From Thermoplasmata archaeon (lineage in GTDB: Archaea > Thermoplasmatota > Thermoplasmata > Lutacidiplasmatales > UBA184), in the NCBI GenBank assembly GCA_022750055.1, contig JAKIWL010000001.1, forward strand, positions 62,001 through 126,000: a stretch of 64,000 nt of DNA, given 5' to 3'. Positions 21,324 through 27,064 of this stretch are shown here, one piece after another; the first letter of the stretch is position 1; every line of letters begins with the position of its first letter. Below the pieces are notes generated by a model. The model was not told where the DNA came from and ran no database searches. It saw only the letters and a program-made list of their open reading frames with translations. The position numbers were made by a program, and so were the translations under genes.

Positions 21324-21456
21324 ACGAACGACCCACCGGGCCCCTCCGAGCCGATTCGCTCGAAGGGGTCCGCGCCGAACCCTACCCCAACTGTCCGTAG
21401 CGTTGCTTCCGAGTTGCATCGCTGCATACATCCACGGACGAGCTCGGACCCCGCCG

Positions 21457-21618
21457 ATGGCGTGCCGAAACGATCCGGACGACCCTCGCAAGTGCGAGCG
21501 TTGCGGACAGTTCCTCTGGGTCTCCGACGACGGGATGTTCTGCGGGGACTGCGGCGTGACGATGCCCTGCACGATGCGGCTCCTTCCCGCGCCGCCCGAT
21601 CCTAAGATCCGTGGTTGA
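21457..21618 (+). CDS. Small putative zinc-binding protein
   Basis: A 53-residue ORF starts MACRNDPDDPRKCERCGQF and contains CERC and CGDC pairs plus two further Cys (Cys3 and one in TMPCTM), a zinc-ribbon pattern. The frame is open upstream to 21403, but the N-terminal 18 residues of that version look unrelated to the Cys-rich domain. No function is recognised. Confidence 0.45.
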   Translation: MACRNDPDDPRKCERCGQFLWVSDDGMFCGDCGVTMPCTMRLLPAPPDPKIRG

Positions 21619-21934: not shown

Positions 21935-23875
21935 ATGGTGCGCCTTGGGAGGGACATAGAGTCGGCTTTGCTCGTGATCGGCCTGGTCGCGCTCGTCTCC
22001 GGGTTCGTCGTTCCACCCTCCTGGGGAGCGGGTCCGGCGTTCGGGACGATCACCAATCCGCATCGCGTTGCCTCCCCGTCGCCGACGGAATCGAGCCGCC
22101 AGCTCTCGCTCGCCGGATCGTCCCTCGCGCGTGGGGCCGGCCCGGCCGCCGGGATCCCGCTGGTCTGTCCGAGCCTCCTGGCTTCGACCGTCCGATGCTC
22201 CCTGGCCCATTCGGCGGCCGCCGGCTCGGGCAGCGGGGTCGGTACTTGGTCGAACGTCACCACGCTGGTCGGAGCGGGGCCGTCCCCCCGGGTCACGACG
22301 ATGGTCTGGGATGCCTCCGATGGCTACGTCCTGCTGGTCGGGGGGCTCGGCTGCGGCGGCGTCTGCTTCATCTCCGACACGTGGACCTTCATCAACGGGG
22401 CGTGGACCAACATCACAACCACGGTCAGCGGGACTCCTCCGAGTGTGTATCTGCCCGGACTCGCGTTCGACCCCTCGACGAGCAAGGTGATCTTCTTCGG
22501 AGGCGTGAACCGGAGCCTCGTGACCCAATCCGCCACCTGGTCCTACCATGCGAAGGCGTGGGTGAATCTGTCCGCCACGGTCGTATCCACCCCGCCCGCG
22601 CGGGTCGCCCCGGCGATGTCCACCGACTCCACCGACGGGGAGATCGTGATGACGGGCGGGGAGACCATCCTAGGGGGTGGATTTTCCACCACGACCTGGG
22701 TGTTCCACGCCGGCACCTGGACCAATGACACGTCGATCGCCGGAAGCTCCGGGGGTCTCATCCTGCCGGCCTCTTGTGACTTTCCTCCCGCGAACGGGGT
22801 GCTCCTCGTCGGCGCGGAGCTCGGGGACCACACCCACGTCGCGACCCTCGAATACTACTCCGGGACCTGGCACAACCTGACGTCGAGCCTGTCGACCTCC
22901 GTGTCGCCGTTCGAGCTCGCTCAGGCCGTCTACTCGCCGAACGCGCGGGCGGTCGTCCTCTTCTCCGGGATCCTTTACAATCGAACCGGCTCGGGCATCG
23001 CCATGCCGATCACCTGGGAGTTCGCGAACGGCGCCTGGACGAACCTCACCGACCTGACGGGCTCGCAACCGGCCACGAATCTCGGCATGGGCATGGTGAT
23101 CGATCCCTCCTCGGGAGCGATCATCCTGTTCGGAGGGCAGCGGTCCGTCGCTCCGATGCTCTCCGAGTACACCTACGTCCTCAGCTCCTTACCGAGCGTG
23201 TCCGCCAACGCGTCACGCTCGGTCGTCGACGCCGGGATGGCCGACACCTTCACCGCCACGTTCACGGGCGGGATCGCCCCGGATTCCGTCAGCTGGAACT
23301 TCGCTGACGGGGGCGCGTCCGCCACCACGGCGATCGCTTCCCACACGTACTCGCATACGGGCCTGTACTTCGTGACGGCCTCCGTCACGAGCTTCGTCGG
23401 CTCGACCGGGACGGGCGGCACGGCCGTCTACGTCAATCCGGCGCTCGCCGCCTCGGCCAGCGTCGTCGGCCCCTCGACCGCCGGGAGCGCGACCACCCTT
23501 TCCGTCAGCGTGACGGGCGGTACCGCCCCGTTCACCTACGCCTGGAGCTTCGGGGATAGTTCGTCGACCTCCACCAGTACCGCCGCGGGGCCGAGCCATA
23601 CGTACTCCGCCGGCGGGACCTTCACCGCCACGGTCCGAGTCACCGACTCGGTGGGGTCGGCGGTCAATGCTACCCTGGCGGTCGTCGTCGCATCTGCTCC
23701 TTCGCCGTTCGCGAGCCTCGGGAGCGCCACCGGTATCGCCGTCATCGTCCTCCTCGTGGTCGTGTTGATCCTCGCCGTGCTGCTCGTGCGCAAGCCGAAG
23801 AATCCCGTCATGATGGCCCCCGTCCCCCCCGGAGCGTACATGACGACCAGCCCGCCTCCGCCTCCGGCCGCGTAG
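21935..23875 (+). CDS. Secreted/anchored Kelch-propeller protein with two PKD domains
   Basis: This 646-residue surface protein has an N-terminal signal or anchor helix (residues 8-27), about six Kelch-like blades between residues 100 and 410 (repeats of VLLVGGLG..DTWTF..GAWTN type), two PKD beta-sandwich domains (about 425-510 and 510-600; SVSWNFADGG and YAWSFGDSS mark them), a membrane helix at about 608-630 and a short Pro-rich tail. Many N-x-T/S sites support an extracellular location. It probably binds polymers or other surface proteins; no catalytic motif is visible. It is monocistronic. Confidence 0.85.
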   Translation: MVRLGRDIESALLVIGLVALVSGFVVPPSWGAGPAFGTITNPHRVASPSPTESSRQLSLAGSSLARGAGPAAGIPLVCPSLLASTVRCSLAHSAAAGSGSGVGTWSNVTTLVGAGPSPRVTTMVWDASDGYVLLVGGLGCGGVCFISDTWTFINGAWTNITTTVSGTPPSVYLPGLAFDPSTSKVIFFGGVNRSLVTQSATWSYHAKAWVNLSATVVSTPPARVAPAMSTDSTDGEIVMTGGETILGGGFSTTTWVFHAGTWTNDTSIAGSSGGLILPASCDFPPANGVLLVGAELGDHTHVATLEYYSGTWHNLTSSLSTSVSPFELAQAVYSPNARAVVLFSGILYNRTGSGIAMPITWEFANGAWTNLTDLTGSQPATNLGMGMVIDPSSGAIILFGGQRSVAPMLSEYTYVLSSLPSVSANASRSVVDAGMADTFTATFTGGIAPDSVSWNFADGGASATTAIASHTYSHTGLYFVTASVTSFVGSTGTGGTAVYVNPALAASASVVGPSTAGSATTLSVSVTGGTAPFTYAWSFGDSSSTSTSTAAGPSHTYSAGGTFTATVRVTDSVGSAVNATLAVVVASAPSPFASLGSATGIAVIVLLVVVLILAVLLVRKPKNPVMMAPVPPGAYMTTSPPPPPAA

Positions 23876-23939
23876 AGCGACCTCGAGCGCGCACTCGCCG
23901 GGTCGCGGACGCATCGGGACGATGGTCGGGGTCCTCGAT

Positions 23940-23956
23940 AGCGAGCCTAGCTCGCT
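23940..23956 (+). terminator. Hairpin after the Kelch/PKD gene
   Basis: AGCGAGC and GCTCGCT form a 7-bp stem with a 3-base loop (CTA), 65 bases after the stop codon. A second pairing, GCCTAGC (23945-23951) with GCTAGGC (23968-23974), competes with it. There is no long T tract, so a termination role is only plausible. Confidence 0.35.
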
Positions 23957-24073
23957 CGTCAGGAACGGCTAGGCGAGCCTCGGGTGCGGCATCGGTGGTT
24001 TCGAGGAGAATTGGGGGGAGCGAACCCCGGAAATGAGGTCTCGACCGCGCTCGCTTCGCCTTCGAGCAATTAC

Positions 24074-24083
24074 GCTTATAGGG
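24074..24083 (+). promoter_or_regulatory. TATA-like element for the RNR transcript
   Basis: GCTTATAGGG would place the transcript start near 24105-24110, giving the RNR gene a leader of about 190 bases, in contrast to the leaderless genes around it. Confidence 0.45.
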
Positions 24084-24123
24084 AGGGTCCCTTACCAATC
24101 CCCCGGAGGGACTGGATCGGGTG

Positions 24124-24282
24124 TTCGGAGGGTCGGCCCGCTCAACCCGGGCGGCAAAATCCTCCGAAGAAACGGGTCTCCGACGGCACCGTTTCACGAC
24201 CCCCCGGATAAGGTCATGGAGCCCCGTGCGCTAGGGGATCCCTCGACCTTCGGGACCGACCGAACGCCTCGAAACTGACCTT
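24124..24282 (+). ncRNA. Candidate structured 5' leader (riboswitch-like) of the B12-dependent RNR gene
   Basis: Three helices are visible. Stem 1 pairs TTCGGAGG (24124-24131) with CCTCCGAA (24161-24168) and encloses GCCCG/CGGGC (24136-24140 with 24148-24152). Stem 2, directly abutting it, pairs GAAACGG (24169-24175) with CCGTTTC (24189-24195). Stem 3 pairs AAGGTC (24210-24215) with GACCTT (24245-24250) around GAG/CTC and CCCC/GGGG. AAGGTCA (24210-24216) can instead pair with TGACCTT (24276-24282) just before the start codon, a mutually exclusive switch geometry. It does not show the conserved cobalamin-riboswitch core that I would recognise. Confidence 0.45.
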
Positions 24283-24298
24283 CCATGGAGCACTACTA

Positions 24299-27064
24299 AT
24301 GGCGGCATCCAAGCGACGCGTCGTGACCTCCCCGTCGGAGATCGCTACCAAGACCTCGACGCGGGCCGGACGAGAGCCGATCGCCGTGCCGCGCCTGGTT
24401 CCCCGAGGAAAGACCGCGTTCGAGACCGTGGATTGGAAGACACACAATTCGACGATCAAGGGCGCCGACGGCAAGTTGATCTTTGAGCAGAAGGGGATCC
24501 ACGCGCCGACGAGTTGGTCGGAGAACTCGATCAACATCGCGGCGTCGAAGTACTTCCGCGTCATCGACGGACGACGAGAGAGCTCGATCGACGGGATGAT
24601 CCGACGCGTCTGCCAATGGATCGCCCAGCGTGGACTCGAGCTCGGCTACCTCGACACCGTCGAGGAGTCCTCGACCCTCGAGGAGAGCCTCTCGTATCTG
24701 ATGGTCCAGCAGATGGCGGCGTTCAACAGCCCCGTCTGGTTCAACGTCGGGGTCCGCACGCCCCCGCAGTGCTCGGCGTGCTTCATCCAGTCGGTCGCCG
24801 ACAACATGGACTCCATCCTGAGCCTGGCCACGAGCGAGGGTCGCCTGTTCAAGGGAGGCAGCGGCACCGGCTCGAACCTCTCCTCGCTGCGAGGGAGCCA
24901 CGAGCACCTCTCCGGCGGAGGGATCGCGAGCGGACCCGTTTCGTTCATGCGGGCCTTCGACGCCCTCGCGGGCGTCATCAAGTCCGGCGGGACCACGCGG
25001 CGGGCGGCCAAGATGGTCATCCTGAACATGGACCACCCGGACATCGTCGACTTCATCGAATGCAAGGTCCGGGAGGAGGACAAGGCGATGGCCCTGATCC
25101 GCGAGGGCTACTCGTCCAACTTCGACGGGACCGACCCCGACTCCGCGTACGCCTCCATCTCCTACCAGAACGCGAACCATTCGGTCCGCGTCCCGGACCC
25201 GTTCATGGAAGCGGTCGTCAAGGACGGCGATTGGAAGACGACGAATCGGACCGACCACTCGGTCGCCGCGACGTACAAGGCCCGCGACCTGTGGCGCAAG
25301 CTCGCCTATGCGGCCTGGCGGTGCGGCGACCCGGGCGTCCAGTTCGACGACATCACCAACGACTGGCATACGAGCCCCAACACCGGGCGGATCAACGCGT
25401 CGAACCCGTGCAGCGAGTACCTCTTCCTCGACGACACCGCCTGCAACCTCGCGTCGATCAACCTGATGCGGTTCCTCGATTCGGACGGCCTGTTCGACCT
25501 CGAACGGTTCCGCGACGCGATCCGCACGATGATTATCGCGATGGAGATCATCGTCGACGCGTCGAGCTATCCGACGGCGCCGATCGCGCAGAACTCCCAT
25601 GACTACCGCCCCCTCGGCCTCGGCTACGCGAACCTCGGTGCCCTGCTGATGCACTACGGGCTCGCCTACGACTCCGACGCCGGCCGCACGCTCTCGGCCG
25701 CGGTCAGCGCCTACCTGTCCGCGGAAGGATACCACATGTCGGCGGAGATCTCCCGACGCGTGGGTCCGTTCCCGGGGTTCGACCGGAACCGCCCCGCCAT
25801 GCTGCGCGTCATGAACAAGCACCGGACGGCGGCGGACGCGATCCCGCTCAACGACCCGCGGATCGCCCCCCTCGTGACGGCGTCCCAGGAGCGCTGGAAC
25901 GGCACCGTCAAGGCGGGCGAACTCTGGGGGTACCGCAACGCCCAGATCTCGGTCATCGCGCCGACGGGCACGATCGGCCTTCTGATGGGCTGCGATACGC
26001 TCGGCTTGGAGCCGGAGCTCTCCCTCGTGAAGACGAAGAACCTCGTCGGCGGTGGCACGATGCGCCTGGTCAACCGCACGGTCTTCGAGGCGCTATCCAA
26101 CCTGGGCTACTCGCGCGACCAGGTGAAAGCGATCGGGGAGCACATCGAGAAGGCGGGCACGATCGAAGGAGCGCCCGGCCTGAAGACCGAGCACCTCGAC
26201 GTCTTCGACTGCGCGCTGGCACCGCTCGGCGGCCACCGCACGATCTCCCCCATGGGCCACCTCCTCATGCTCGGGGCCGTCCAGCCGTTCCTCTCCGGCG
26301 GTGCCTCGAAGACGATCAACCTCCCGCACGACGCCACGGTCGAGGACATCGAGAAGATCTACCTCGAGGCCTGGAAGCTCGGGATCAAGTCGGTCGCCCT
26401 GTACCGCGACGGCTGCAAGGCCTCCCAACCGTACGAGACCGGAAAGGGGCGGACAGCCCCGACGGGCCCCCGAGGTCCGGCCCGGGAACGCCTACCCGAC
26501 GAACGCAAGGCGATCACCCACCACTTCCAGGTCGGCGGCCACGACGGGTACGTGACGGTCGGGCTCTACCCCGACGGCCGCCCGGGCGAGATCTTCTTCC
26601 GGGTGACGAAGGAGGGGTCCACCGTGAACGGCCTCATGGATTCGCTCGGCATCTCGATGTCGATGGCCCTGCAGCACGGCGTCCCGCTCAAGGACCTCGT
26701 TCGCAAGCTCGCCCACCTGCGCTTCGAGCCGGCCGGCGCGACCAACAACCCGAAGATCCGCTTCGCGAAATCGATCCCGGACTACGTCGCGCGCTGGCTC
26801 GCGGCAGAGTTCCTGACCGAACCCGAGCGCCAGGCCATCGGCTTGGAGGCGCCCAATTCGGACGGGAACGGGCACGGTAGCGCGAGCGCAACGGCGGGGA
26901 AAGCGGCCACGTTCGAGACCAAGCCGCTCGATGCGTTCGCGCCGCCCGTCCCGGGCGGGGTGAGCGACGATGCGCCGTCCTGCCACATCTGCGGGGGGAT
27001 CATGGTCCGGTCCGGCACCTGCTACGCGTGTACCGTCTGCGGCGCGACGAGCGGCTGCTCGTAG
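24299..27064 (+). CDS. nrdJ: Adenosylcobalamin-dependent (class II) ribonucleoside-diphosphate reductase
   Basis: This 921-residue enzyme reduces ribonucleotides to deoxyribonucleotides using adenosylcobalamin. The barrel carries FNSPVWFNVG, CSACFIQSV (a redox Cys), KGGSGTGSNLSSLRG, the finger-loop NPCSEYLF with the radical Cys near residue 371 and nearby Glu, and APTGTIGLLMG. The C-terminus has a TSCPD-type region (VTVGLYPDGRPGEIFFRV) and a zinc ribbon CHICGG...CYACTVCG with terminal Cys residues that recycle the active site. No intein is present. The upstream structured leader may regulate it. Confidence 0.96.
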   Translation: MAASKRRVVTSPSEIATKTSTRAGREPIAVPRLVPRGKTAFETVDWKTHNSTIKGADGKLIFEQKGIHAPTSWSENSINIAASKYFRVIDGRRESSIDGMIRRVCQWIAQRGLELGYLDTVEESSTLEESLSYLMVQQMAAFNSPVWFNVGVRTPPQCSACFIQSVADNMDSILSLATSEGRLFKGGSGTGSNLSSLRGSHEHLSGGGIASGPVSFMRAFDALAGVIKSGGTTRRAAKMVILNMDHPDIVDFIECKVREEDKAMALIREGYSSNFDGTDPDSAYASISYQNANHSVRVPDPFMEAVVKDGDWKTTNRTDHSVAATYKARDLWRKLAYAAWRCGDPGVQFDDITNDWHTSPNTGRINASNPCSEYLFLDDTACNLASINLMRFLDSDGLFDLERFRDAIRTMIIAMEIIVDASSYPTAPIAQNSHDYRPLGLGYANLGALLMHYGLAYDSDAGRTLSAAVSAYLSAEGYHMSAEISRRVGPFPGFDRNRPAMLRVMNKHRTAADAIPLNDPRIAPLVTASQERWNGTVKAGELWGYRNAQISVIAPTGTIGLLMGCDTLGLEPELSLVKTKNLVGGGTMRLVNRTVFEALSNLGYSRDQVKAIGEHIEKAGTIEGAPGLKTEHLDVFDCALAPLGGHRTISPMGHLLMLGAVQPFLSGGASKTINLPHDATVEDIEKIYLEAWKLGIKSVALYRDGCKASQPYETGKGRTAPTGPRGPARERLPDERKAITHHFQVGGHDGYVTVGLYPDGRPGEIFFRVTKEGSTVNGLMDSLGISMSMALQHGVPLKDLVRKLAHLRFEPAGATNNPKIRFAKSIPDYVARWLAAEFLTEPERQAIGLEAPNSDGNGHGSASATAGKAATFETKPLDAFAPPVPGGVSDDAPSCHICGGIMVRSGTCYACTVCGATSGCS

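Follow-up and report, generated by a model that had tools for sequence, protein, structure and literature searches.

The analysed stretch of DNA, referred to here as the window, is 64,000 nucleotides long and comes from a genome of 1.5 Mb. The host is a Thermoplasmata archaeon of the order Lutacidiplasmatales, which are soil archaea; the assignment to this order follows from its named close relative, Candidatus Lutacidiplasma. The window carries nrdJ, the gene for a B12-dependent ribonucleotide reductase, and sequence comparison marks the DNA in front of this gene as a real conserved regulatory region. The features of the locus are as follows.

24075-24080, forward strand: distal TATA box CTTATA, with a predicted start near 24102-24106
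24105-24110, forward strand: GGAGGG, where the long leader is predicted to start; 5' strand of the candidate helix P1 and Shine-Dalgarno-like sequence of the upstream ORF
24121-24234, forward strand: short upstream ORF with a GTG start and a TAG stop, 37 codons in the window species
24169-24195, no strand: 27-bp palindrome GAAACGG-N13-CCGTTTC, which is also a 7-bp stem; candidate DNA operator
24207-24217, forward strand: proximal TATA-like box 2, degenerate in the window species; placed from the AT profile after the palindrome and from the boxes of sister genera
24279-24284, forward strand: CCTTCC just upstream of the nrdJ ribosome-binding site, 3' strand of P1; placed from the lowest-energy leader fold and from permutation and independent-pair tests
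24287-24290, forward strand: GGAG, Shine-Dalgarno-like sequence of nrdJ; a GGAG/GGAAG-type sequence precedes the ATG in most relatives
24299-27064, forward strand: nrdJ, class II B12-dependent ribonucleotide reductase, 921 aa (Pfam PF02867, PF08471, PF12637)

Orthologs of nrdJ were drawn from GTDB contigs and from the host genus, and 73 distinct upstream regions were kept. Conservation of stems was counted in 72 relatives, a stem being taken as formed when at least 75% of its pairs can be made. All 73 orthologs have a TATA-like hexamer 198-228 bp before the nrdJ ATG, so an nrdJ leader of approximately 175-200 nt probably exists. The leader of about 190 nt proposed in an earlier, sequence-only reading of this DNA is plausible, as CTTATA sets the predicted start near 24104. 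Approximately 30 bp past the distal TATA box lies GGAGG, which is invariant in 51 aligned relatives.

Several other observations concern the surroundings of the gene. Ahead of the distal TATA box, many relatives share an extra conserved block similar to AAGGAACGG-TT-N-CGCTTCG-N-CGACGC, and it lies at about -300 from the nrdJ ATG in L006, L010, L011 and L022. In several relatives the DNA some hundreds of bp before nrdJ resembles the end of a zinc-ribbon ORF (CGDCGVTMPCTMR; ORF 21403-21618), and in the window species a gene for a Kelch/PKD-like surface protein (21935-23875) separates this ORF from nrdJ. One contig titled Klebsiella pneumoniae (a MAG, L102) encodes an nrdJ that is 50% identical to archaeal nrdJ and is probably a mislabelled bin.

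The palindrome at nrdJ and at other genes

The palindrome is 24-27 bp long across the orthologs, follows the consensus GRAAC(G)-N14..17-(C)GTTYC and is typically followed after about 20 bp by an AT-rich TATA-like box. It is present in 63 of the 72 relatives, which makes it the one conserved element among the four that the sequence-only reading had named, there as a 7-bp RNA stem (24169-24175/24189-24195). Its half-sites covary in phylogenetically independent pairs (p = 0.001-0.03). A stem in RNA is expected to favour G.U over A.C combinations, and at the most variable pair the two are equally frequent (7 and 7). This balance argues for a DNA element rather than an RNA stem; it is not decisive alone, because the element at a Rad51-family gene, presumably untranscribed, has more G/T than A/C. 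The compensatory changes GAA..TTC to GGA..TCC and ACG..CGT to ACA..TGT replace amino acids encoded by the upstream ORF; being nonsynonymous, they indicate that the nucleotide sequence is kept and not the peptide. The palindrome could additionally form a hairpin in the distal transcript. An outer stem around it was considered and rejected, as its positions are only 58-68% paired.

Downstream of the palindrome, relatives usually have a proximal box of the form TTAG, ATAG or CTTAAG at about +19 to +24, which is approximately 65-75 bp before the ATG. The box of the host genus is short (TTAG/ATAG, with three AT-rich positions). The window species has two candidates after the operator, GATAAGG at +12 to +18 and TCAT at +19 to +22, each either poor or out of register. 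The proximal promoter of the window species may therefore be weak. A pattern search for a strict palindrome followed by a strong TATA box found few sites, since box 2 is TTAG-like rather than TATA. Sister genera, with nrdJ 66-71% identical, also have two TATA-like boxes at comparable distances, the proximal one often being a strong TATA (CTTTATTT, CTTTATG, CTTAAG), and this is consistent with an arrangement of two promoters.

A covariance model of the leader was built from 51 leaders and searched against 78 genomes of the host genus. It matches strongly at nrdJ, nearly always once per genome, with two further matches at nrdJ of a sister genus. Weak matches also occur in front of other genes; these have in common with the leader only the stem and, about 20 bp past it, an AT-rich box. 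When the palindrome was searched for with one mismatch allowed and a spacer of 14-18, it was found upstream of the Rad51-family gene at 27 of 30 loci and upstream of a small RNA at 23 of 29, compared with a rate of 3.4% in random stretches of 220 bp. Three sites in the host's own 1.5-Mb genome carry the exact form GAAAC-N17-GTTTC, namely those at nrdJ, at the small RNA and at a DNA methylase-like gene, and a 25-bp version precedes the Rad51-family gene. Past the palindrome, nrdJ and the Rad51-family gene have AT profiles that agree to the base, being mostly low to +18 and peaking at +21 to +23 (AT fractions of 0.88, 0.84 and 0.84 for nrdJ and of 0.96, 0.93 and 0.96 for the Rad51-family gene). 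The ATG of the Rad51-family gene follows about 38 bp after its box, and the box of the small RNA, CAAATA, lies about 26 bp before the predicted start. At both genes the palindrome is upstream of the core-promoter box and should therefore be untranscribed. Since the same palindrome and spacing recur upstream of core promoters elsewhere, the palindrome is read here as a DNA element.

The protein encoded by the Rad51-family gene (L175:502-1359, minus strand, in the host's own genome) matches PF08423 at E = 4.5e-5, just above the curated cut-off. This divergent protein is conserved in the genus (loci L228-L257), and its gene often lies on the same contig as nrdJ, approximately 20-35 kb away. The small RNA (L215:1467-1550, minus strand, in the same genome; loci L258-L287) is found in 44 of the 78 genomes of the genus and has a conserved structure of about 70 nt with strong covariation, comprising a 13-bp basal stem, an internal loop AUCGCC/GGCGUG and an apical loop GCACCG. 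It has no match in Rfam even at E = 1.

An archaeal operator would be recognized by a conserved palindrome at a fixed distance from a core promoter box and by the same site upstream of the core promoter at other genes, and both are found here. The palindrome at nrdJ is therefore likely to be a promoter operator of a putative dimeric factor, with control mainly at the level of DNA and with nrdJ, the Rad51-family gene and the small RNA as a candidate regulon, which is the best explanation of the conserved stem. The distal TATA box would direct a transcript with a long leader and the proximal box one with a short leader. The factor would bind the palindrome just upstream of the proximal box, and the spacing of the two half-sites, about two helical turns apart, would be typical of a dimeric protein. 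Once bound it could activate the proximal promoter or, by derepression, release it. What we infer is the factor itself, the direction in which it controls its targets, the signal that induces it and where the two transcripts start. The three genes are placed in one candidate regulon because of the shared element only; the list derives from the loci followed and comprises at least three genes. As a guess from gene content and from the analogy with Halobacterium described below, its theme is plausibly replication or DNA damage. The palindrome points to a small, previously undescribed gene circuit.

Upstream ORF and candidate long-range helix in the leader

Control may also act at a second, translational level on the distal transcript. 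In relatives the 5' GGAGGG has a possible pairing partner, a CCCTCC-like sequence immediately ahead of the nrdJ ribosome-binding site. The resulting long-range helix, P1 (24105-24110/24279-24284 in the window), perhaps closes the leader, with moderate support from sequence comparison. The duplex energy of a leader's own strands averages -16.07 compared with -14.76 (sd 0.25) for permuted strands, and none of 5000 permutations does as well, in a test that ignores phylogeny. Swaps between phylogenetically independent pairs are significant at small distances (p = 0.003-0.013) and not significant at larger distances (p = 0.18-0.23), and a control window is negative. Matching changes on both strands are seen in two relatives, with GGAGGAG/CTCCTCC in L002 and GGAAGG/CCTTCC in L057.

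The start codon of the upstream ORF is present in 58 of the 73 leaders and absent from the remaining 15, and in 35 of those 58 the ORF is exactly 32 codons long. In most leaders the GTG lies 14-17 nt from the start of GGAGG. It is nearly invariant, and where it is replaced, in L002 and L079, the substitutes are TTG and ATG. Stops within 28 codons are depleted in frame 0, with 2, 11 and 15 of 62 leaders having one in frames 0, +1 and +2, respectively. A conserved peptide was rejected as an explanation: although the ORF often keeps its length, the distance between the GTG and the palindrome differs by 1-2 nt in several lineages, and substitutions within the palindrome are nonsynonymous. Because the peptide is not conserved and the frame shifts, the upstream ORF, if it matters, acts via its translation and not via its product.

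These observations bear on the proposal that nrdJ is controlled in translation. In this proposal the 5' GGAGGG doubles as the upstream ORF's ribosome-binding site and pairs with the CCCTCC beside the nrdJ ribosome-binding site, such that nrdJ translation would be affected both by how the leader folds and by translation of the upstream ORF. Such control would be compatible with the operator. The permutations, the close-range swaps, the constancy of GGAGG and of the start codon and the depletion of frame-0 stops speak for it; the loss of significance at larger distances, the neglect of phylogeny in the permutations, the shifting frame, the variable peptide and the leaders that lack a start codon speak against it. 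On balance translational control of this kind is possible but somewhat doubtful. A fuller scheme would make the long leader an archaeal translational regulator, in which a long-range helix ending beside the nrdJ ribosome-binding site masks the leader's own 5'-terminal Shine-Dalgarno sequence and is toggled by translation of the upstream ORF, while the palindromic operator within the leader switches on a second, short-leader promoter in a regulon of nrdJ, the Rad51-family gene and the small RNA. As a whole this scheme is speculative, and we regard it as unlikely.

Relation to known control systems

In bacteria, NrdR boxes are short AT-rich palindromes in tandem that control ribonucleotide reductase genes. 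The element at nrdJ shares with them the palindromic control of such a gene, whereas it is not a tandem of short AT-rich palindromes. An NrdR regulon was rejected, as TIGR00244 is detected in none of 5 genomes of the genus and in 9 of 14 control genomes.

Short elements with a TTTC core are also known from promoters of archaeal damage genes. In Sulfolobales, Orc1-2 binds the DNA damage response element ANTTTC (PMC9738581). This element is an asymmetric hexamer with A at position 1, whereas the element described here is a spaced palindrome in which that position is almost always C or T in both half-sites. In Halobacterium sp. NRC-1, radA1 and the class II nrdJ are consistently induced together by UV, and genes responding to UV-B have a promoter motif, TTTCACTTTCA, a TTTCA direct repeat upstream of TATA, which is reported at radA1, vng17, top6B and vng280 and not at nrdJ (PMC2556686). 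The TTTC core and the pairing of a recombinase with nrdJ are common to both systems. However, the Halobacterium motif is a direct repeat that is not reported at nrdJ, whereas the conserved element here is an inverted repeat, GAAAC/GTTTC, with its halves about two helical turns apart, and it is located at nrdJ. Because the sequences differ, the palindrome is assigned neither to the Halobacterium motif nor to the Orc1-2 element.

The palindrome might instead be a general upstream promoter element, such as the site of a housekeeping activator or a chromatin protein, rather than the operator of a regulon. Three unrelated genes have it at the same position relative to the core box, and one of these, the small RNA, is perhaps constitutive, which would suit such a role. 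The exact site, however, occurs three times in the 1.5-Mb genome with nrdJ included, and the leader model finds few further sites, which makes a general element distinctly improbable.

Little is known of how Thermoplasmatota regulate dNTP supply and repair, and the paper naming the order Lutacidiplasmatales mentions neither ribonucleotide reductase nor transcription factors (PMC9287336). With a defined operator at three genes, the factor responsible can be found. Such an operator also allows a test of whether archaea other than Halobacterium, where this is known, control nrdJ and a recombinase together.

The proposed reading of the leader as an RNA switch

Bacteria have leader RNAs upstream of nrdJ and cobalamin riboswitches upstream of B12-related genes. 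The leader described here resembles them in lying upstream of a B12-related gene and differs in having no Rfam match. The sequence-only reading had taken it for a switch-like, cis-regulatory RNA that perhaps senses cobalamin, nucleotides or metals via alternative pairing. All four pairings that it named are perfectly complementary when every pair is checked. Apart from the palindrome, none of them is kept in the 72 relatives: the 8-bp stem (24124-24131/24161-24168) is formable in 2, the arms of the third hairpin (24210-24250) pair in 3, and the alternative pairing of AAGGTCA with TGACCTT, on which switching would depend, is found in 1. The reading had itself named conservation of the stems as its test, and on that test the switch fails.

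Further results concern the RNA more generally. Positions 23850-24350 have no match to Rfam covariance models up to E = 10, and the only Rfam match in the window is a tRNA elsewhere, with none in the leader region; a known cobalamin riboswitch or another Rfam family was therefore rejected. The pairing GGTGTC/GACACC was also rejected as a conserved RNA helix, since its covariation in independent pairs is not significant and its 5' side hardly varies at the GTG. Folding of 24104-24310 gives z = -2.3, with 5 of 200 dinucleotide shuffles equally good, and folding of 24120-24255 gives z = -2.1, with 6 of 200, so that the leader fold is only marginally better than shuffles. The conserved leader with its distal TATA box, this slight excess of folding and the moderately supported closing helix can be cited for a switch; against them stand the pairings that are not kept, the switching one included, the missing Rfam match, the failure of GGTGTC/GACACC to covary and the recurrence of the one conserved stem upstream of core-promoter boxes of other genes, and no evidence points to any of the three ligands. 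The riboswitch reading of the nrdJ leader is not supported, and a switch of this kind is very improbable. The case of the palindrome also carries a caution, in that a conserved stem with compensatory changes in an apparent leader can be a DNA palindrome.

Some nrdJ leaders of a sister genus (L205, L206 and L208) contain a hairpin downstream of the distal TATA-like box, both arms of which have matching changes (GGAGCC/GGCTCT, GAGGACC/GGTCCTC), and this may be a different structured leader.
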